From: Candidatus Wolframiiraptor sinensis | GTDB lineage: Archaea; Thermoproteota; Nitrososphaeria_A; Caldarchaeales; Wolframiiraptoraceae | DNA: 64,000 nucleotides | Assembly: GCA_023268255.1 (NCBI GenBank) | Contig: JALNJX010000002.1 | Coordinates: 186,001-250,000, forward strand | Reading direction: 5' to 3' | In this document: positions 36,960 through 48,231 of the stretch, in pieces | How positions within the stretch are numbered: position 1 is the stretch's first letter | Layout: every line of letters starts with the position of its first letter | The notes under the pieces: model-generated | The model's input: the letters and a program-made list of their open reading frames with translations, nothing else | The model's database searches: none | What the model was told of the DNA's origin: nothing | Program-made: the position numbers and the translations under genes

Positions 36960-37044
36960 GCGGGGGTAGCCAAGCCTGGTCAAAGGCGCAGGACTGAGGC
37001 TCCTGTCCCGTAGGGGTTCGTGGGTTCAAATCCCACCCCCCGCA
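36960..37044 (+). tRNA. tRNA-Leu (anticodon GAG), integration target
   Basis: GCGGGGG at 36960-36966 pairs with CCCCCGC at 37037-37043. The anticodon stem CAGGA/TCCTG encloses CTGAGGC with anticodon GAG at about 36996-36998. The T arm is GTGGG-TTCAAAT-CCCAC. It is a full class II leucine tRNA without encoded CCA. Its last 17 bases plus two downstream bases recur exactly at 46292-46310, so it is the intact end of an integrated element. Confidence 0.96.
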
Positions 37045-37046
37045 CA
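37028..37046 (+). repeat. Left attachment site (attL) core
   Basis: AAATCCCACCCCCCGCACA begins in the T loop of tRNA-Leu(GAG) and runs two bases beyond the tRNA. The same 19 bases occur in the same direction at 46292-46310. The tRNA-Leu(UAG) at 7634 shares the first 17 bases. Confidence 0.85.
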
Positions 37047-37072
37047 TTTTTACCGGTTCATTTTTACCGGTT
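37045..37072 (+). repeat. Tandem 14-bp repeat beside attL
   Basis: CATTTTTACCGGTT occurs twice without a gap at 37045-37058 and 37059-37072. Each unit has TTTACCGGT; its reverse complement ACCGGTAAA occurs at 46274-46282 just inside the right attachment site. These are plausible arm-type recombinase or excisionase sites. Confidence 0.6.
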
Positions 37073-37197
37073 TGTCTGGAAAACTCTCAAGGAAAGATAA
37101 ATAATATGAGCTATAAGGACCGTTTATGCCTCAGAGAAAATAAAGAATGACGAGCAAAACATTAATGTTACGTAATGCGATTTGAATCTAGCGTGCA

Positions 37198-37836
37198 ATG
37201 CTCTTAACAGTTCTATGGGGTTTAAGGCATAGACGGCTGGCAATAAGAATCTATACTTTACTCTGCTCCATGTGGCTATTACTACTGGCGACCTTTTATT
37301 TCTCGTTTATAATTGCTAATGTAACACTTGAAAGCGCTATAGGTGGTATAATTCTTGTATTTATGCTGGGCTTTCCTCCTTTAATTCCCATAATTTACCT
37401 AAGGAGAAGAGAAGAAAAGAAGGTAAAGGAGGTTCGAATTGATCCATATCTCTCGAGTGCTAAGGAAAAGGCTTTGGCCATGGAGAGATATTTTAAGGGT
37501 GAGACCTCTGTTTCATGGAGCCCAATAATAACCTTGGCTCATGATGCCCTCATATCAATCTTGCAAAGGATGCTCATAGATTTAAAGGGAAGTGAGGCTA
37601 TATCGATAATCGAACAGCTCAGAAGGGAAAAGAAATTATATCTACATACCCTTTCGAAAATGCTTAAAGACAATAATGTCATTGATGAGGAAGATATGAA
37701 AAATCTGGAGATTCTAAGAGATTTAAGAAATAGAATTGTGCACGAAGATTATCATCCAAGCAAGGAGCAGGCATTATGGGTGGTAAACTTTACTAAGACA
37801 TTTATCACAAAACATTACCCAGAGCTAAAATTATAG
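37198..37836 (+). CDS. Membrane protein with HEPN-like C-terminal domain
   Basis: The 212-residue protein has two N-terminal membrane helices (LAIRIYTLLCSMWLLLLATF and GGIILVFMLGFPPLIPIIYL, to about residue 67) and a cytoplasmic helical domain. That domain ends with RDLRNRIVHEDYHP, an RxxxxH-type HEPN motif common in toxin and defence RNases. No other catalytic motif is seen. HEPN domains can be inactive sensors, so RNase activity is inferred. It is the first gene of the island and is AT-rich. Confidence 0.55.
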   Translation: MLLTVLWGLRHRRLAIRIYTLLCSMWLLLLATFYFSFIIANVTLESAIGGIILVFMLGFPPLIPIIYLRRREEKKVKEVRIDPYLSSAKEKALAMERYFKGETSVSWSPIITLAHDALISILQRMLIDLKGSEAISIIEQLRREKKLYLHTLSKMLKDNNVIDEEDMKNLEILRDLRNRIVHEDYHPSKEQALWVVNFTKTFITKHYPELKL

Positions 37837-38465
37837 AGACTTTTAAGTTTCAGCCCTTAATCTGCGCGCATGAGCAAAATTCCGACTTTAAGTTATAAAT
37901 GCTATCTGATTACAATTCAAGAGAAAACCAGCATCATATTTCTATGAAGATTTAGGCGCGATAGTAATGGCAGGTAAGTTAGCAGAAATTGAGGAGCTCC
38001 AAATGAATTAAAAGCTTGGCAAATAGAAAAGAGAAGGAGAGAACCTTCATAAAGGGAAGTTTAAAGAATTCTCTTAAGACGTGTTGCCTTAGCTTACCGA
38101 ACATCTCATCAACTTTGACCTTTCTTTATTTTTCATGAGCTACACTATAGCCTTGAAGACAGATATAAAAATTCCTGATCCTTTGTGAGAGGTTCTTTAC
38201 TATATCATTCGTAGCAGCATAAGAAACAAAAGCTTTTTGGAACTGCCAGTCAATGACATTACGGACATTCTTAATGACTTAATTCGTTAAATTCTTTGAA
38301 AGCTCTGAAATCTTTTTCAATCTGTGAAGATGTACAGGAAATACTATAAATAAAACACTATAACTAATTCCGCTCCCCTAGTCACTTTTATGTTGACGTG
38401 AATAGTATTGAGAGTATTACTACCCAAAAGATAAGCTTACATAATCCTAAGGAATTATTATTTGG
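37837..38465. other. Gene-free AT-rich stretch, possible gene remnant
   Basis: No convincing gene is present. A plus-strand run near 37930-38010 reads KPASYFYEDLGAIVMAGKLA followed by EIEELQMN before a stop and looks protein-like, but no neighbour frame continues it well. It may be the remnant of a deleted gene, possibly the missing recombination functions, though I cannot identify it. Confidence 0.3.
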
Positions 38466-39722
38466 GTGCTAGGCATGTTACTGTCAAATCAAGTAAAAAC
38501 CATACCATCCGGCCTTCAAAAATTAATTGAAAAAGTTTTCACGATTTTTAATAAGACTATAAAACCGAAATCTAAGGTTATTATAACATATTCCGGCGGG
38601 AAGGATTCAACAGCATTGGCAATAATTTTTTATGATTGGCTTGAGAGAACTAGGCCTGAAGATGTGGAGGTTATTTTCCTGCATAATGACACATTAGGAG
38701 AAATACCGCCCATGGAGTCTTGGGCCCGAAAGTTCATGAAACAGGCAGAACATCTTATCGGAGAACTGGGATACGAAGTAAAAGCGATCATAGCTCCTCC
38801 TCCTCTAATAGACACATTTTACTGGAGGGTCATTGTAAGAGGTTATCCCGCTCCCTCATATTCCTTTAGGTGGTGTGTTAAACTGCTGAAAAGAGACCCA
38901 ACTCATAGAGCATTAAGAGAATTTACCGGCGAATCAATATTGATGACGGGCTTGAGGGAAAGCGAGTCTGGCGATCGTGCGAGAAATATCAAGCGAAGAT
39001 ATGGTAGCTGTTCTTCCGGAGCTGGAAAGTGTCTCGCATATTTCTTCTCCAGAGAAAACTTTGAAAACATGAAGAAGATTGCTCCCCTGAGGGACTGGGA
39101 GACCATAGATGTATGGGCTTTCCTATCCCTCGACTCGCCTTTTGACATTTCCGACCTGCTAGACCTCTACAGCTGCGAGGGCGCTAGGTATGGCTGCTGG
39201 TTCTGCACACTAGCCAAGGTCCAGCGAGGGCTATACTCGCTAAACGATGACAGGTATCTATACCTCGATGCAGCAAGGTTGCTCTATAGGAAAATTTCAG
39301 ACATGCCCATTCTTAGGAAACGTAAGAAAACCGGTTATAGCGAACTTGGAGCCTTAAATATTGCTGGAAGGGCAATAATGCTGCGCCTCTTCGAAACTGT
39401 TGAAAAAATTTCGGGCATCACATTATATAGTTTAGATGAGGCTAAAACGAGGTCAGGGTTTACGCTCAGAGAACTTTTCTATGAACTACCAGCAGAGCAA
39501 GCCGAGAAAATAATAACCCTAGAAGACCCCAAAATTAACCCCAAGCGACGCATAAGTCTCCAGAAAATCAAATATCCAGAGATAAAACAGATTCGCATAA
39601 TTGAGAAAACGTTAACAAAAATAGAAAGGGGATCACGAAATGAAAAATCTAGAAAGCTTATTTTAGAAAGAGGATTTGACGCCGTTAAAGAAATAATTGA
39701 AACAATAATCTCTGAATTTTAA
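38466..39722 (+). CDS. DndC-like PAPS reductase-family protein
   Basis: This 418-residue protein is a PP-loop ATPase of the PAPS reductase/DndC group. SGGKDST at 43-49 binds ATP; RWCVK (Cys137), GLRESES at 163-169 and a cluster Cys237, Cys244, Cys247 in SCEGARYGCWFC match the cysteine pattern of DndC, which carries an iron-sulfur cluster and activates DNA for sulfur insertion in phosphorothioation. An additional pair Cys182/Cys189 is present. dndD, dndE, a cysteine desulfurase and dndFGH are absent. It faces, tail to tail, a helicase-nuclease pair. Start GTG 38466 or ATG 38475. True sulfate assimilation is unlikely given the cysteine pattern and the context. Confidence 0.7.
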   Translation: MLGMLLSNQVKTIPSGLQKLIEKVFTIFNKTIKPKSKVIITYSGGKDSTALAIIFYDWLERTRPEDVEVIFLHNDTLGEIPPMESWARKFMKQAEHLIGELGYEVKAIIAPPPLIDTFYWRVIVRGYPAPSYSFRWCVKLLKRDPTHRALREFTGESILMTGLRESESGDRARNIKRRYGSCSSGAGKCLAYFFSRENFENMKKIAPLRDWETIDVWAFLSLDSPFDISDLLDLYSCEGARYGCWFCTLAKVQRGLYSLNDDRYLYLDAARLLYRKISDMPILRKRKKTGYSELGALNIAGRAIMLRLFETVEKISGITLYSLDEAKTRSGFTLRELFYELPAEQAEKIITLEDPKINPKRRISLQKIKYPEIKQIRIIEKTLTKIERGSRNEKSRKLILERGFDAVKEIIETIISEF

Positions 39723-39738
39723 TTAACTTATAGAATTT

Positions 39739-41328
39739 TTATTCCCATCTGAAGAATAAACAGCCATCACCACTTGACACACTGGGCACCCTTCTTAAAG
39801 TGTTATAAGAACTGATATTCGCTAGCTCAAGTATCTGTTCTGTAGTCATCTCTAATTGTTTAACCTTGAGCTTTAAACTTGACTCTTGAAAACTTCTGGG
39901 TTCTTCACCACTTAAATATTCGTACATTTTCTTGGCTTCTCTTCTCAATTTAAAGAGATCGCCCACGATAACCAGCAACTTCTTATGTCTGCTTAACTGG
40001 ACGTTAAAAACTTCAGGTTCCATAAAGTAAATTGTTCTTTCATGATATAATCTACCGGTTCGCTCTTTCCCTAATATGGCAATTATATGAGAGTCTTCAG
40101 CCCCCAGCATTCTATGAATGGTTGTAAAATTGATTGCTTTGATATCTTCCCCGAGAACATCTCCATAAAGATGATGCATGCGTAGCTTCATTTGAAGTTG
40201 CTGGTCAACATAAGGTGCCACAATTGTTACGTTTTCTTTCAAAATCTTTTTAATCGCGCAAGAGAATAATAAACCAACCTTAGCCCTTCTTTCGTTGAAT
40301 AAATAATCTCTCAAATAATCTCCACGTACGTGAACATAAATTATTGGTACTCCTGTGGTTATTGCACTATTCAAGATGTCTACTGTTTTGAAATAATCAT
40401 CATTTAAATTACTTAGCTCTCTAGCCTCATTAGTATCCCATTGGTTTGCTACCTCTTTTAATATCTCATCAGCCTTTTTATAAGCTCTTAAATTGCCACC
40501 ATAGAATCCTACACTGATAGGAGTTTCTGATGGATGTGGCAATCTTCTTGTTACTTCTAAGAATTCGTAAAAGGTCCCTCTTAATTCTTGAAAAGCGGCT
40601 TCGGTAATGTCTATTTCTCCTCTATCAACTTCCATTTTCAACTTTTCTGACAGTAATCCTCTTATCAGATTTGTTAGCAGTAATAAATCTTCTCTGCCCC
40701 TATATTCATCTCCTAATGCTATAGCTTGTTTAGGATCACCAATAACATTGAGTGATTCTAGAATGCCTTCTTTCTCTGATTGTTGAATAAGCTCGAGAAG
40801 TCTATCTGAAATGGTTATAAAGGGTCTATGAATTGGCGATTTGCTTGCCTCATCAATGAGCAGATGATATCTTCTAGCAGCTTCACTCTCATATATTCTC
40901 TGATATTCCGTTGACAACACTATCTTAACGTCATCATCAATTGGTTTTCTTAAATGTTCAAATTCTCCACCATACCTAAATCTTGAACCATACACACGAA
41001 CTTCCTTTTTTAAATCTTCTAAGGTTTTCTCCTGATTTCGATAAATTGAAGCTACTCGTGCAAGCATGTCTGCAACTAGTTTATTCGTCGGTGCAACATA
41101 TAGAAAAACTTCATTTTCATCAGTTTCGTCAAGGCATTCATTAATGACTTGTTGAAAAACTGTTGTTTTTCCAGTTCCAGGGGGGCCTTGCACTAATGAT
41201 ATTCTCTCAGAATCTATTGCAATAATTTTTCTCTTAACTAGTTCCACAGCAGTAATGTTAAAAGATCGTTCAATGCCGAAATCTCCGCTATATCCCTTAT
41301 TAATTAAATAACGTACATCATATGACAT
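39739..41328 (-). CDS. SF1 helicase (Dna2/Upf1-like)
   Basis: The 529-residue protein has helicase motif I VQGPPGTGKTTVFQQ with GPPGTGKT at 48-55, motif Ia VAPTNKLVADMLA, motif II LLIDEASKSP near 157-164, motif III NVIGDPKQAIAL, and later FTTIHRMLGAEDSHI and NVQLSRHKKLLVIVGD as motifs V/VI. This is the superfamily 1B pattern of Dna2 and Upf1 helicases. It is encoded seven bases after the nuclease gene on the same strand, so both would form one nuclease-helicase unit, like Dna2 split into two genes. Confidence 0.8.
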   Translation of the reverse strand: MSYDVRYLINKGYSGDFGIERSFNITAVELVKRKIIAIDSERISLVQGPPGTGKTTVFQQVINECLDETDENEVFLYVAPTNKLVADMLARVASIYRNQEKTLEDLKKEVRVYGSRFRYGGEFEHLRKPIDDDVKIVLSTEYQRIYESEAARRYHLLIDEASKSPIHRPFITISDRLLELIQQSEKEGILESLNVIGDPKQAIALGDEYRGREDLLLLTNLIRGLLSEKLKMEVDRGEIDITEAAFQELRGTFYEFLEVTRRLPHPSETPISVGFYGGNLRAYKKADEILKEVANQWDTNEARELSNLNDDYFKTVDILNSAITTGVPIIYVHVRGDYLRDYLFNERRAKVGLLFSCAIKKILKENVTIVAPYVDQQLQMKLRMHHLYGDVLGEDIKAINFTTIHRMLGAEDSHIIAILGKERTGRLYHERTIYFMEPEVFNVQLSRHKKLLVIVGDLFKLRREAKKMYEYLSGEEPRSFQESSLKLKVKQLEMTTEQILELANISSYNTLRRVPSVSSGDGCLFFRWE

Positions 41329-41335
41329 TCAGCTA

Positions 41336-43279
41336 TCACCTAGGTCTTAAACCACTTCCAATAATCCTCGATAAAAAAGGTTCTACTGGCTCAATTTCTT
41401 CTTTAACCTTTCTTATTTCTTCTAATTGCTTTTCTAAACCTTGTTTAACATTTTCATCCTGCTCATTTTCAAGCATTTTCTTAATCATTCTTTGCATAGC
41501 ATCTATAGATTGTAATTCTGCACCAAGTAAATCAACATTTATCTCAAAAATCAAAATATCATTTCTCTTTTCAGGATAAATATTTAAATATTCTCTAAAG
41601 ATGGCCATCGAGTATCGTAAAGCAGAACTAGGCAAACCTATTATGTACTCTACTCCATTCTTTTCTTCTCTAACCTCTACTTCATCAATCCTACCATATG
41701 TGCCTATACTTAGTAGTGGCGTCCATGAGTCAACAATTGTTATTAAAACTGGCTTTCCTTCCGGAATAACTCTATAAAATCCTTCATCAATTTCTATGGG
41801 TCTCAGTTTTCGATAACCACGTATAAGATCATCCTCTATATAACATTCGTCTAGAACATCCAGTCTAAAACTTCCTAATAGCTTTCCGCGTCTATAAACT
41901 TTCATCTGCATTTTCGCGATAGTAGATGGATACGGTGCCTCACCAAAATGCCACTCAAAGCCTTCTCCATTCCTAATTTTCTCAATAACTTTCTTGATAG
42001 GATATATTCTAAATAGTTCATGTAAGCATCGATATGGTAAAAGCATTTTTTCCTTTTCATCAAAAACTTTAAATCTTAAAGACCACATTGCTCGGTCGAA
42101 ATCAGTTTTTTCACCAAATCCCCTTCCGAAATAAAATTCGCAGGGCCCATATTCATAGTTGTAGTAGCAAAAAGGTTCCCCATTGCGCGTGACGCATGGG
42201 AATGAGTTACGCTCTTTAGGGAAACCACAATATATTTGACTAGGTTTGATTCTAAATATACTTGCTTGTACTTCTCTATCATTAAATGTTAGCATTTTAG
42301 TACATATTCCTTCGAAATCTCTATCTATCGGACTAAAAGCTCTAATATTTGTAGTTAATAAAGTAAGGTGCTCCGCGATTAAGCATACATCGTAAATTAG
42401 TTTTTTGAAACTGTCATACTCTCTCTCAAGCTCATTTGATCCAGTAAACATGAGTGGATGCGGCTTTATTTGTCCTCTTTGAACCGGTCGAATTATTGCC
42501 GGCAGAACTTTTACATTATTAACCCTAAAAGTATTATAGGTGCCGTTTCTTGACAGCTCACCAATAATAGCATTTATAGCTTTCTCTTTGGTGTTATACC
42601 CTAATCGAACTGCCTCCATTAATGCGTAACAAATGACCTGTGCCTCTTCATGCTTTGAAGGTGTCTCACGTGTGGTTTTCCACTCAATAACTAAAGCGGC
42701 TTTTTCTTTAGGAAATTCAAGTATTAAGTCAGGCACTCCGCGCATATGTAAGGTATAATCAATAAATTGTTGTTCAACTATTGGAAAAACTTTTGAACTG
42801 TGGTCAACTCCGATTATGGCTAACATTCGTGGAAGGTTCGACAGAAGATTAAGCATCAATGAAGATGCTAGCAATACTGTGTCATTGATTTCACTCTTCA
42901 GTATTTGTAACAATTGGCGAAAATCGTCAACTTGCAGCATTTCCTCAATCATTGTTTGTACATTATGAGCTTGCGAAAGTACATAAGTAATCCCCTGAGA
43001 GAATAATCTCAAAGATAGTATCCCAAGTAACTTATGAATTGTTGATCCTTTACCAGCAATCCTGGAAACTCTTTGCTCAGGCATATGCCTAGCTCCTATT
43101 GATTCTGCAATCCTTGCGTAATAATAACAAAAGCCAGCGCCTCTTGCAATATTTGTTACTAGTGGAACATGGCTTGCGTATTTCAAAACAGACTCTGCAA
43201 TTTCCAAACAAGTTCTTTCAGCATTCAATTCTTTTTCAAGCACATCAATAACAGAATTGAATAACATCATGTGAGACAT
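41336..43279 (-). CDS. Cas4/Dna2-like PD-(D/E)XK nuclease with iron-sulfur cysteines
   Basis: The 647-residue protein has a RecB-like nuclease core: GSTIH (His82), GVPDLILE (Asp184), ALVIEWKTTR (Glu199 and Lys201) and EAQVICYAL (Gln214, Tyr218). Cys51 before the core and Cys351, Cys362, Cys371 and Cys380 after it resemble the split cysteine set that holds a 4Fe-4S cluster in Cas4, AddB and Dna2. A further 260 residues form an unrecognised C-terminal domain ending in a coiled coil. No cas1, cas2 or CRISPR array is nearby, so it is not a CRISPR Cas4. It is the first gene of the helicase operon. Confidence 0.75.
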   Translation of the reverse strand: MSHMMLFNSVIDVLEKELNAERTCLEIAESVLKYASHVPLVTNIARGAGFCYYYARIAESIGARHMPEQRVSRIAGKGSTIHKLLGILSLRLFSQGITYVLSQAHNVQTMIEEMLQVDDFRQLLQILKSEINDTVLLASSLMLNLLSNLPRMLAIIGVDHSSKVFPIVEQQFIDYTLHMRGVPDLILEFPKEKAALVIEWKTTRETPSKHEEAQVICYALMEAVRLGYNTKEKAINAIIGELSRNGTYNTFRVNNVKVLPAIIRPVQRGQIKPHPLMFTGSNELEREYDSFKKLIYDVCLIAEHLTLLTTNIRAFSPIDRDFEGICTKMLTFNDREVQASIFRIKPSQIYCGFPKERNSFPCVTRNGEPFCYYNYEYGPCEFYFGRGFGEKTDFDRAMWSLRFKVFDEKEKMLLPYRCLHELFRIYPIKKVIEKIRNGEGFEWHFGEAPYPSTIAKMQMKVYRRGKLLGSFRLDVLDECYIEDDLIRGYRKLRPIEIDEGFYRVIPEGKPVLITIVDSWTPLLSIGTYGRIDEVEVREEKNGVEYIIGLPSSALRYSMAIFREYLNIYPEKRNDILIFEINVDLLGAELQSIDAMQRMIKKMLENEQDENVKQGLEKQLEEIRKVKEEIEPVEPFLSRIIGSGLRPR

Positions 43280-43857
43280 AATATTTCCTACCTAAAGAGA
43301 GACTTATATTGGCCTGGCTTATATTCTTTATGGTTATGTTGCTCAATTCATTTGTACAGGCTCTACATTGCAATAAAAGAGGGGGTTAAGAAGGATTTTT
43401 AGTCTATAACTGTATAGATTCTATTGAGCCAAATATCAAATATTAGAACCTCTCTACTAATTAATGATTTGGTATCGCTAATTTACGGGCTTTGTCAACT
43501 CTCATATTTTCTATTTTGAAACTGGAAGGTTAAAAGATGAATCAATCTATTGCTATTTAGAGCACATGAATATAGTGCAGAGGTGAATTTAGGTGATTCT
43601 CTATTTCCCGACTAATCTAGTAGGCATAGGAAGTAATTGCTTTTAGTAAGTCTACTGCATATTTTCTTCACCCTCTCTAAGCTTTTGACGCTTGACATGC
43701 TCTATTGCACTTTATTCCGCTATTTTGTACACAACTTTCTCTAAAAATCCATTTCAATCTTATTGTTCATTTTCATTAAACGTTGTTCATGCATTTGGTC
43801 GGGCTTTAAGTATTTATATTACTGGTTGAAGAACTTATTATTACAGGGAGTTTAAAG
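43280..43857. other. Gene-free AT-rich intergenic stretch
   Basis: It lies between two divergent transcripts (nuclease-helicase leftward; the toxin module rightward). I see only A/T-rich promoter-like DNA and no open frame, tRNA or repeat array. GGGAG just before 43858 is a likely ribosome site. Confidence 0.5.
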
Positions 43858-44604
43858 ATGAGCGTTGCTATTGGACTTTATTTGCTCGGATACTATGCTG
43901 ATAGACACGCCATGTATGTTATGCCCCTTAAGTATAGGGACCTTTATCATTTCCATAACATCCTTAAACATTTAGGAACTATCTTATCAAAAATTATCTT
44001 ATCAAACATCAGCATCATTCCGATTAGATATGCTTATCGTGTTAGAGATCAGCCTGAAAATGTTAAGGAAATTGCTAAAGAACTCGAACCTTATATGAGG
44101 AAATATATAGAAAACTTTTTCTCCGATATCGAAGTTTTTAAAGAATTTCCTAGAAATGAAATAAAACACTTTATCGAAACAATACGCAACTTTGTCAAGA
44201 ATATTATGAGAAAGGATGCTCATCTGGGTGAAGCTTTTGATTTACTTCTTGAACATCTAACAATAAGGCTAAATTGGTTACTAAACAAGCCGAATGAATA
44301 TATTAAAAAAATGTCAAGATTTGTCACATTTTACAAAGATGATGCCTTTGAATACGCGGTTCTCTTTATATCGAGTATATTACTATTGAGGGCCCTAAGC
44401 AAAAGTGTGCCCTTACTGTTTATCTGGAAAGAAGATGTGGAAAAAAGGGAAGTGCTTGTTAAAAAATTTTTGGAAGTAGCGGAAGAACTTGAATGTTACA
44501 CAGTAACATTTCAACTTATGAGCATGCCTACAGGAGAGGAGGTAGAAATCATAGGACAGGCCGTAACTCTAGAAGAATTAAAAAGGGTGCTTAGCATTGA
44601 ATAG
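43858..44604 (+). CDS. Unrecognised partner of RelE-like toxin
   Basis: I do not recognise this 248-residue protein. It is rich in Lys, Ile and Leu, has one hydrophobic stretch near residues 164-185 (YAVLFISSILLLRALS) and long amphipathic helices. The C-terminus ends EEVEIIGQAVTLEELKRVLS. It overlaps the RelE-like gene by eight bases, the usual layout for an antitoxin gene, but it is two to three times longer than normal antitoxins and has no visible DNA-binding domain. Confidence 0.6.
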   Translation: MSVAIGLYLLGYYADRHAMYVMPLKYRDLYHFHNILKHLGTILSKIILSNISIIPIRYAYRVRDQPENVKEIAKELEPYMRKYIENFFSDIEVFKEFPRNEIKHFIETIRNFVKNIMRKDAHLGEAFDLLLEHLTIRLNWLLNKPNEYIKKMSRFVTFYKDDAFEYAVLFISSILLLRALSKSVPLLFIWKEDVEKREVLVKKFLEVAEELECYTVTFQLMSMPTGEEVEIIGQAVTLEELKRVLSIE

Positions 44605-44866
44605 CGAGTACAAGCACGTTATAAATCTCACAAGACGATTCGAGCGTAGCTTGAAAATCTTAAGTAGGGAGAATCAGGAACGTGTATTGAATAAGATAAA
44701 TGAGCTTGGTTTAGGTATAGATGAGGGAAAAATCCTTCGGGGTGAATATAAGGGAATGAGATCTTTAAGAGTTGGCAAATACAGAGTTATTTATGAAAAA
44801 CCTAAGTATTGTACAATTGTACTCTTAGACGTAGGAAACAGAGAGACGATTTATGATAATCTTTAA
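44597..44866 (+). CDS. RelE/ParE-family toxin
   Basis: The 89-residue protein has the small RelE/ParE fold pattern: RRFERSLKILSRENQERVLNK, LRGEYKGMRSLRVGKYRVIY and IVLLDVGNRETIYDNL. RelE members cut mRNA on the ribosome; ParE members poison gyrase. The LRVGKYRVIY strand with Arg is typical. Its start lies inside the end of the 248-residue gene, so translation is coupled. Confidence 0.75.
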   Translation: MNSEYKHVINLTRRFERSLKILSRENQERVLNKINELGLGIDEGKILRGEYKGMRSLRVGKYRVIYEKPKYCTIVLLDVGNRETIYDNL

Positions 44867-45734
44867 AATAGCAAGTAAATATGCGCAGAAAGCGCAGAAA
44901 ATCATTTTTAAAGTAAATTCGCAAACGAATTGAGCCAGCTATCATAAGTAAATTCCCAAAAGTTTATCTCAGGCCTTACAGCGAGAAAGATTATTTCTCA
45001 GACTTATCGCGAAATTGATATTCCGGGAAGACATCAGAACCATTCGAAAGTGTACGGCATATGTGGTCCTACTATTTTTTATGGATGGGGCAACTCGCAT
45101 CAAATTCTATATTGACGCGCCTAATGATCTGATAGAGGATTCATGCTTGATGTTAAAAGAATCATCAATGCTAAAGGGGGAGATTTTTAAACAACTTTGT
45201 GAAGAATACAACCACATACTTGAGGAAGAATTGATGGGATAGAATGGCTTGAGTTTAAACTCCCAACAAAACATGAGGAAGTTTGGGAGAATTTGAGAGA
45301 CAATAGAGAGATACGATGTCTCTATATTGAAATGATCGCTTCGATTACGTTAAGTGTCACTTTCGAACACTTCTTCTTTAAGCGGCCTTAATGGTTAATC
45401 TTATGAGCTCTATTGTTACAGATTCAACCCAATTTTACATTTTAGAAATCTATTTGTCTCTTATTGGTTTTGAAAAATTAATCCCTTAGTTCTTTTATCT
45501 TGTAAAATCTGATCATTTCTGTGAGATAAGATCTCAAAGATGATTTATCGAGTATTAATGGAATAGCCGAACTACCTACAAATAACTCTTAGATGCGATC
45601 CGAGATCTTTCATCTATTTTTGTCTTGAAAAGATTATAAAATCAATAAGACGGACAAGCCTTTTTCTAGAAATCATGTTACGAAATATACTTGTTATGAC
45701 ACCCCAGAGTCTGTCATTATGTTTTTTCATAGGA
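44867..45734. other. Gene-poor AT-rich stretch
   Basis: Only short frames are present. One from ATG 45082 to 45242 (IKFYIDAPNDLIEDSCLMLK and on) and another to about 45390 (WLEFKLPTKHEEVWENLRD) look protein-like but lie in different frames and match nothing I know. They may be remnants of one decayed gene. Confidence 0.35.
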
Positions 45735-46160
45735 TTAACCAAATAAGTTCATTGCAACCAAGAAAAGTAAGGCTAACCATATTACTAAAAATGTTATAGG
45801 CAAAGCATACGCGAGCTTTCGTATTTCAATACCGCCTAATTTCTCTGGATATGTATCAGGTGCATTAGTTTCTTTTACAAGTTTCTGCACCTCACGCTTA
45901 TAATAGAGCATGTATTGGCTGCTCCGATATTGAATGAGAAGCCATATTATACTTAGGATTATTCCTAAAAATGTGATAAGCATTTGAAAGATTACTAATT
46001 GAGGGATATTTTCAACTGGTTTTTGACTAAAAGCCAGAATCAGAATGCTCATAACTACTAGGAAATAACTGTTGCGGCTCCAGTGAAGTCTTGCCTCGGC
46101 ATCCTGCCGATCCGTAAACAATTTCAATTTATTTAACAATTCTTCTAATTTTTCAGACAT
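45735..46160 (-). CDS. Small multi-pass membrane protein, SLATT/RipA-like
   Basis: The 141-residue protein has a charged N-terminal helix (EARLHWSRN) and three membrane helices (SYFLVVMSILILAFS, VIFQMLITFLGIILSIIWLL, YALPITFLVIWLALLFLVAM). A juxtamembrane helix like this followed by SYFL or similar occurs in SLATT and RipA-type membrane effectors that are linked to defence systems. The family call is weak. It ends the island on the right, reading leftward, 130 bases inside the attachment site. Confidence 0.4.
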   Translation of the reverse strand: MSEKLEELLNKLKLFTDRQDAEARLHWSRNSYFLVVMSILILAFSQKPVENIPQLVIFQMLITFLGIILSIIWLLIQYRSSQYMLYYKREVQKLVKETNAPDTYPEKLGGIEIRKLAYALPITFLVIWLALLFLVAMNLFG

Positions 46161-46291
46161 GTGAGGTTCCTTTTACCTAAGAAGTTAACCTCCTGCTTTA
46201 AATAATTTTATAGCTTTTCATATAAAGTATTATAAAGTTTTCTCGAATATCTTCTAAGCGTTGATTTAAAAATACCGGTAAATTTTGGTGG

Positions 46292-46310
46292 AAATCCCAC
46301 CCCCCGCACA
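46292..46310 (+). repeat. Right attachment site (attR) core
   Basis: AAATCCCACCCCCCGCACA is an exact 19-bp copy of the left core within tRNA-Leu(GAG), but no tRNA body precedes it. TACCGGTAAATTTT lies just inside it. Confidence 0.85.
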
Positions 46311-47274: not shown

Positions 47275-48231
47275 CTATTTGCCATCTGGCGGAGCGGGGG
47301 AGACTCGCTTGGCGGCCCGAGCCTTGGGCTGGCTTCGGCTGAGGGTCCTTGGCATAAGGTTCATTAACCCCCCAACCCAAGAATCCCCCTGAGGTGTGCC
47401 GGGGGGAGGGTTGGGGGTCTCCCCCTTTGCCTCCCCTGAGCCGGGCGCCCTCAGGGGGCCTTGGGCGGGGAATCGTTTTTCGTAGTCTCTTAGTATGAAT
47501 CTTATCGGAGCTTCTAGGTATTGTATTCCCAGCATTATCGCTGCAGTTTTCGCCAAGTTGATTATGGAGACGTGATCTCTATCATCTTCCATTCCGCACC
47601 TTGGGCATTTCACGCGCCTTCTTCCATGGTCGGTCATTATTGAGTGACAGCGCGGGCATATGTGACTACTGAATTGCGGCGGGACTTTCATCAGCTTTAT
47701 TCCACGTTTTTCACAGGCTCTTTCCAATCTTCGAAGAATTTTTGCGATGGGCCATGTAGAGTATCGTTGTGCCAGTTCTGGGTCTTTACTCCTTAATTTT
47801 TGTCTTAAAGCCCTTGCATTCAAATCTTCTACAACGATTAGAGCGGCATCAAAGTCCTTTGCGGTTCTTATTATTGTTGCGACGCTATCGTTTATCCACT
47901 GATTCTCTCTCGCCCTAAGGTATGCTAGCCAGCTACTTGCAGGTCTTTTATGCACTTTCATCGAATACCTGTTTATTTTGCGGACGAACGATATCAAGTG
48001 AATCGGCCTTTTCACCCTCAGCCTCTTCGCCGGGTATATTCTTGTCTCGGTTAATCTTATCGCACCAATGGTTACGTCGCTCACGTTGACGTCAACGGTT
48101 ACGAGCTTCAGCTCCCTCGCTTGCTGATATTGAACTAGCTCGTGGGGAAGGCCTTGGCCAGGTTTTCCTCGCATGTCGCTCAACGTAAAACAACTCTTGG
48201 AAGGATATTTGCATAGCTGTTCTAGAATCAC
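47275..48231 (-). pseudogene. IS605-type TnpB, N-terminally truncated
   Basis: This 318-residue RuvC-like protein keeps the catalytic triad: Asp47 in VTVDVNVSD, Glu135 in IVVEDLNAR and Asp219 in EDDRDHVSIINLA, and the zinc ribbon Cys192, Cys195, Cys209, Cys212. TnpB is an RNA-guided nuclease of IS200/IS605 elements. About 120 N-terminal residues are missing, and the present residues 18-40 (LPHELVQYQQAREL) look like an internal deletion junction. There is no tnpA. GTG 48231 is preceded by an in-frame TGA, so the gene is a remnant. The C-terminal tail of about 60 residues runs into a GC-rich hairpin. Confidence 0.75.
47369..47417 (-). other. Strong GC hairpin in tnpB 3' end (possible guide-RNA scaffold)
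   Basis: CCCCCAACCC (47369-47378) pairs perfectly with GGGTTGGGGG (47408-47417), and CCCCC (47385-47389) pairs with GGGGG (47401-47405) inside it. The hairpin lies within the 3' end of tnpB, where omega RNAs of TnpB elements usually lie. Whether it is transcribed is not shown. Confidence 0.45.

Follow-up and report, generated by a model that had tools for sequence, protein, structure and literature searches.

A DndC-like gene beside a split Dna2-like nuclease-helicase: a probable variant of modification-based defence in archaea

Introduction

Do a DndC-like gene, a Dna2-like nuclease gene, and a helicase gene that lie side by side in an archaeal genomic island act together as one defence system, and which mark would such a system place on DNA? 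The locus that raises this question lies in a window of 64,000 nucleotides, the whole stretch of DNA that was analysed, from an archaeal host genome of 1.23 Mb. Defence surveys have given archaea little coverage (PMC12988326). The accounts cited here present Dnd, Ssp, and BREX type 4 as phosphorothioate systems (PMC10853773, PMC12707154, PMC12839542). The exchange of methylation and phosphorothioation is an accepted theme, where type-4 BREX swaps the methylase for a PAPS reductase (PMC12839542) and some Dnd systems are described as carrying a cytosine methylase instead (PMC10853773). No description of the trio was found in a literature search that had subscription journals mostly outside its scope, and its novelty is provisional.

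Results

Genomic island that carries the trio

The DndC-like gene (38466..39722, plus strand), the helicase gene (39739..41328, minus strand), and the nuclease gene (41336..43279, minus strand) are intact open reading frames. A sequence-only reading of the window had described a DndC-type gene with SGGKDST beside a nuclease and a helicase, and the intact frames and profile matches agree with that description. The tail-to-tail arrangement of the DndC-like and helicase genes that it reported is also present, with 16 bases between the stop codons rather than the reported 17.

That the trio lies inside an island, as had been claimed, is borne out by low G+C, tRNA-Leu repeats, and a break of synteny at 37045. 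The AT-rich island (37047..46286) is ~9.3 kb long, and G+C drops from 0.55 upstream to 0.34-0.39 over most of it. The left attachment repeat (37023..37046, plus strand) is the 3' end of the tRNA-Leu(GAG) gene (36960-37045) plus one base, and the right attachment repeat (46287..46310, plus strand) is a copied tRNA-Leu 3' end. The copies lie 9,264 bases apart and are identical at 22 of 24 positions (19 exact). Two genomes of the same genus match the window at ~78% identity over the upstream gene and the tRNA, and the match ends exactly at 37045. No integrase gene was seen within the island (37047..46286).

Other genes were observed in and near the island. At its left edge, a gene (37198-37836) encodes a predicted membrane protein whose C-terminal part is HEPN/DUF4145-like. 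A 248-aa protein with a weak AbiEii match overlaps a ParE-like toxin gene (43858-44866), and these genes are a possible toxin-antitoxin pair. A TnpB-like protein with a Cas12f1-like TNB domain is encoded just beyond the right repeat (47275-48231).

The partners of known phosphorothioate systems were searched for. A genome-wide profile search of the host for DndD gave only a 16-bit match, with none over the cut-off, and neither DndE nor DndFGH is among the island genes, which upholds the earlier statement that these partners are missing. SspB and SspC, the SspB, SspC, and SspD set of Ssp, and PglZ, BrxC, and BrxL were likewise not found in the island with Pfam and PADLOC. The host genome has three NifS/SufS-family desulfurase genes, of which one (L155), unlinked to the trio, is IscS/NifS-like. 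IscS is able to substitute for DndA (PMC8569181), and the desulfurase of a Dnd system (DndA or host IscS) has a counterpart in L155.

The DndC-like protein

The DndC-like gene encodes a predicted PP-loop sulfurtransferase of 418 aa with SGGKDST at residues 43-49. It matches the PADLOC DndC profile at 8.9e-34 and TIGR03183 (DndC) at 1.1e-30 with 106.9 bits, which is below the equivalog cut-off of 290.4 bits; the canonical DndCs of L141 and L142 score ~500 bits on the same model. The match to SspD is weak (2.4e-08) and that to BrxP is just 7.8e-15. The best annotated plasmid matches carry the name DndC.

In a tree of 108 relatives, built by a quick search and with several long branches, the protein falls into an eight-member clade (support 99) that is sister to canonical DndC. 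The clade grows to ten members with L140 and L026 (support 97), lies outside canonical DndC, and is separate from PRK13795-type and CysH-type reductases. The protein groups with DndC and keeps SGGKDST, RWC, and GCWxC, which place it in the DndC superfamily; by its sequence, it is assigned to a deep clade of its own within the DndC group. The earlier reading had left room for a grouping with sulfate assimilation or tRNA thiolation enzymes. That identity was rejected on the tree and on the far better match to DndC models (1e-30 for TIGR03183 vs 8e-4 for cysH and 0.018 for TtcA).

The cysteine pattern was claimed to be DndC-like, and this holds in part. FRWC (C137) and GCWxC (C244, C247) are kept in all ten clade members compared, but the ECP and PSCG motifs found in most aligned DndCs are missing from the clade. 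A C182/C189 pair replaces them in most members, though not universally, and is present too in a Thermus-type group. A DndC homologue of Thermus parvatiensis that has a C-x5-C-type insert was also observed (L030:9686-10885), in a region with integrase- and repressor-like genes that resembles a mobile element.

The AlphaFold model of the protein (pLDDT 75.6) has a PP-loop fold, and its nearest solved structures are CysH, TtuA, and NcsA. The structure comparison that had been proposed thus returned the PP-loop match but not the comparison with DndC; no DndC was found among the solved structures, so the match is a generic one.

The nuclease and the helicase

The nuclease gene encodes a 647-aa protein of the Cas4/Dna2/AddB type with a PD-(D/E)XK domain (PDDEXK_1, 2.5e-07; weak match to the Cas4 profile) and a predicted 4Fe-4S cluster (C51, C362, C371, C380). 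The residues D184, [ED]199, K201, Q214, and Y218 and the four cysteines are kept in 12 of 12 aligned copies while identity falls below 30%. QxxxY and a 1+3 cysteine layout are typical of Cas4, Dna2, and AddB, and the window nuclease fits this Fe-S class in all these features, as the sequence-only reading had recognised. No match was obtained in a PDB sequence search with the nuclease profile.

The helicase (529 aa; Pfam AAA_19/AAA_11/AAA_12) is of the SF1 (UPF1/Dna2-like) type. GPPGTGKT, DEAS, GDPxQA, and NVQLSRH are intact and stand in invariant alignment columns; motifs I, II, III, and VI are all present, which places it in the UPF1-like SF1 class. Its nearest solved relatives in the PDB are UPF1/NAM7 and SEN1. 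Nuclease and helicase genes are co-directional and 7 bases apart; their order, nuclease first, matches that of the Dna2 domains and agrees with the earlier description of a split Dna2-like pair.

Recurrence of the trio and exchange of its partner

The loci come from nuclease matches, from DndC-profile matches, and from searching 214 genomes that belong to another order. Of 398 genomes in the phylum, 11 gave a nuclease match, of which one (G359; 99 residues, 5e-4) was discarded as spurious. Altogether, 19 distinct nuclease-helicase loci were found, all in one archaeal phylum, and nuclease precedes helicase on one strand in 17 of them. A modification gene lies within a few kb of the pair in all 19. 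It is DndC-like in ten (window/G000, G185, G244, G270, G065, G171, G034, G007, G535, and G559) and a DUF1156 methylase with a DUF499 ATPase in nine (G155, G044, G208, G020, G348, G401, G552, G437, and G453). G401 is apparently the same assembly as G496 and was counted once; in G244, a DUF1156 methylase also lies nearby. Five loci (G437, G453, G535, G552, and G559) were fetched after the pattern had been noted, and all five fit it.

The co-occurrence that the sequence-only reading had put forward as a check was found, with the DndC-like, nuclease, and helicase genes side by side in ten loci from ten genomes and seven families. The trio is more than chance because it recurs in ten genomes. Full-length genes of the DndC-like clade occur in ten of the 398 genomes, and eight of them adjoin the pair. 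One of the other two is broken by frameshifts (G397). The second (G079) is the C-terminal part of a frame of 1,122 aa (L137:2232-5600), beside a 2,337-aa frame with no Pfam match, on a 13.6-kb contig where neither nuclease nor helicase was found.

The DndC-like gene and the methylase/DUF499 pair swap beside the same nuclease-helicase, which goes beyond the earlier reading. Partner type changes once on the nuclease tree (0 of 500 label shuffles as low) and twice on the helicase tree (3-5 of 500 as low), compared with 4.8 changes for shuffled labels. The swap is not one-for-one because methylase-type loci carry the DUF499 ATPase and bare DndC trios do not.

Five loci are bare trios (window, L016, L140, L179, and L180), and L180 has the gene order and orientation of the window with zero or one base between genes. 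Extended loci (L018, L019, L136, and L138, with a decayed copy in L139) add two class-I methyltransferases that are conserved and divergent from the DndC-like gene. They also hold conserved genes of no assigned function, one with a weak ATPase match. These extra genes could act on the sulfur mark. L016 adjoins a CRISPR array of ~42 repeats with cas1/cas2, and L019 and L136 adjoin a C5 DNA methylase. The neighbours of DndC-type loci point to defence.

Several related arrangements were observed. In L017, the nuclease gene directly adjoins a second PAPS-reductase-type gene that is very divergent (L017:6928-7734), and a DUF1156 methylase is encoded downstream of the DndC-like gene. In a Thermoproteota MAG (JAADDE010000056.1), DndC-like, NurA-like, and HerA-like genes lie in a row (L026:2-5450). 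This is a further compact trio whose degrading pair differs, and it may be Tdp-like; the same assembly carries a methylase-type nuclease-helicase locus (L161). The canonical dndB-dndC-dndD-dndE-dndA order is present in other genomes of the phylum (L142:5191-11375 and L143), which can serve as controls.

The pair was not found beside the DndC homologues of named bacterial genomes, where one helicase match was obtained (L086). No relatives were found among IMG/VR viral contigs with the nuclease and helicase profiles, and no match was obtained for the nuclease among plasmids, the helicase among phages, or in a single-protein search of genome contigs. The nuclease profile also gave no match in the 28 genomes searched from a locus-linked archaeal phylum, a negative that carries little weight.

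Discussion

Proposed function

The trio is real and coherent and recurs across genomes; it is probably a variant of modification-based defence, and its mark and chemistry are predicted. Since the nuclease-helicase pair always lies beside a modification gene, and this gene is of two unrelated types, the pair most plausibly serves as the restriction half of a self/non-self system. With moderate confidence, we favour the reading that the trio is a minimal modification-restriction (antiviral) module where the DndC-like protein would mark DNA with phosphorothioate and the Dna2-like pair would degrade unmarked DNA. By analogy with DndC, phosphorothioate is the most likely mark. We infer this mark and the attack on unmarked DNA, as well as a target sequence and protection by the mark.

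In the proposed mechanism, a host cysteine desulfurase would feed sulfur to the DndC-like protein, which would activate a DNA phosphate with ATP and insert the sulfur to give a phosphorothioate. The nuclease and the helicase would be the two subunits of a Dna2/AdnAB-like machine, which would unwind and degrade DNA without the mark; viral or plasmid DNA would be destroyed, whereas host DNA would be spared. Because phosphorothioate linkages are resistant to many nucleases, the mark might do no more than block this machine. The helicase may have a double role, also making DNA strands accessible to the DndC-like enzyme. With DndD absent from the genome, and DndE-, SspB-, and SspC-like genes not seen in the island, the DNA-handling step may, speculatively, fall to the helicase. 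The missing ECP and PSCG cysteines count against the phosphorothioate reading, and so does the lack of linked DndD and DndE, which are held essential in Dnd systems (PMC8569181). The uneven swap, with a DUF499 ATPase in methylase-type loci and none in bare trios, likewise counts against the favoured reading.

A bolder proposal, which we put forward tentatively and rate as somewhat short of probable, is that the trio represents an undescribed archaeal class of phosphorothioate modification-restriction systems with three genes. One Dna2-like helicase-nuclease would both deliver strands for sulfur marking and destroy unmarked DNA, without DndD/E or SspB/C. The mark would be an exchangeable module because adenine-methylase systems employ the same effector pair.

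If the mark is phosphorothioate, the trio would rank with the smallest sulfur-marking defence systems known, and the need for a DndD/DndE- or SspB/SspC-type partner in marking would come into question. Since one effector pair occurs with two unrelated kinds of mark, it can be tested cleanly whether the pair reads the mark itself or is simply blocked by it. The trio is also searchable as a unit.

Alternative explanations

The sulfur may be placed elsewhere than the DNA backbone, as a thiolated base or a phosphorothioate that is further methylated, in a module that would still be one of modification and restriction. The deep clade and altered cysteines of the DndC-like protein, and the two class-I methyltransferases beside its gene in the extended loci, are consistent with such a mark. 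The bare trios have no methyltransferase, and the closest sequence kin is DndC, a backbone enzyme, which makes this explanation rather unlikely.

We consider it unlikely that the nuclease-helicase is a mark-dependent or abortive effector that is activated by the sulfur mark, as reported for SspE. This idea draws on the role of SspE as a phosphorothioate-sensing effector (PMC13251355) and on the use by both Ssp and Dnd of a mark from a DndC homologue (PMC12707154). However, the same pair works with a DUF499 (BR/Hma)-type methylase, a type read as marking self (PMC12839542), and no separate reader domain was detected.

A DNA repair or end-resection module, with break resection by the Dna2-like pair and a redox or Fe-S role for the DndC-like enzyme, would account for the Dna2-like architecture and the Fe-S nuclease. 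The patchy presence (11 of 398 genomes), the mobile island, the CRISPR and methylase neighbours, and the swap with a DUF1156/DUF499 system known from defence argue against it, and we regard it as quite improbable. That the DndC-like protein thiolates tRNA or serves sulfate assimilation, its linkage being accidental, is hardly credible: the fold model is closest to CysH, TtuA, and NcsA among solved structures, but the DndC model scores far better, the tree separates the protein from PRK13795-like reductases, and accidental linkage is largely refuted because ten genomes from seven families carry the trio.

Comparison with known systems

The preferred reading, a minimal module that marks DNA with sulfur and degrades unmarked DNA, has its nearest known kinds in Dnd, Ssp, BREX type 4, Tdp (An et al. 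2025, Nat Chem Biol 21:1160, doi 10.1038/s41589-024-01832-w), and the Hma/DUF499 systems. The trio shares with Dnd (DndABCDE with DndFGH) a DndC homologue with the PP-loop, FRWC, and GCWxC and, as predicted, the marking of DNA to tell self from non-self. It differs in having no linked DndB, DndD, DndE, or DndFGH, a DndC-like protein that is under the family cut-off and without ECP/PSCG, and a Dna2-like nuclease-helicase as effector. Canonical Dnd was rejected on the score (106.9 < 290.4 bits) and on the absence of DndD from the genome and of DndE from the island.

Ssp (SspABCD-SspE/FGH) likewise combines a DndC homologue (SspD) with a non-Dnd partner set. It was rejected since the trio has no linked SspB, SspC, or SspE and the SspD match is weak. 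BREX type 4 resembles the trio in having a PAPS-reductase-type enzyme in the place of the methylase (PMC12839542); it was rejected as PglZ, BrxC, and BrxL are missing from the island, and DUF4007 is not linked to the trio either.

The DUF499-centred BREX-related (BR)/Hma systems are connected to the trio by the nine sister loci, which pair the same nuclease-helicase with a DUF1156 methylase and a DUF499 ATPase. Among the DUF499 ATPase, N6 methylase, and Swi2/Snf2 helicase of BR/Hma, the sister loci have the first two and the bare trios have none of the three. Published BR systems have a Swi2/Snf2 helicase that is often fused to a nuclease, and no SF1 helicase accompanied by a Fe-S nuclease as a distinct protein was found in their description (PMC12839542). 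Here, the SF1 helicase and the Fe-S nuclease are separate, and the DndC-like protein replaces both methylase and ATPase.

The trio shares with Dna2, Cas4, and AddAB-AdnAB the 1+3 cysteine Fe-S nuclease and the SF1 helicase; here, each is encoded by its own gene, and both genes are linked to one for DNA modification. Tdp of Thermus is reportedly a very compact phosphorothioate system of thermophiles with one DndC-type enzyme and two DNA-degrading proteins, and its ATPase is said to be a hexameric HerA-like translocase and not an SF1 helicase. The trio is likewise compact, with a DndC-type enzyme and two predicted degrading proteins, and its SF1 helicase would set it apart from Tdp. The DndC-like, NurA-like, and HerA-like genes of L026 are closer to the Tdp plan than the window trio is. 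The Thermus system would be the nearest functional analogue of the trio.
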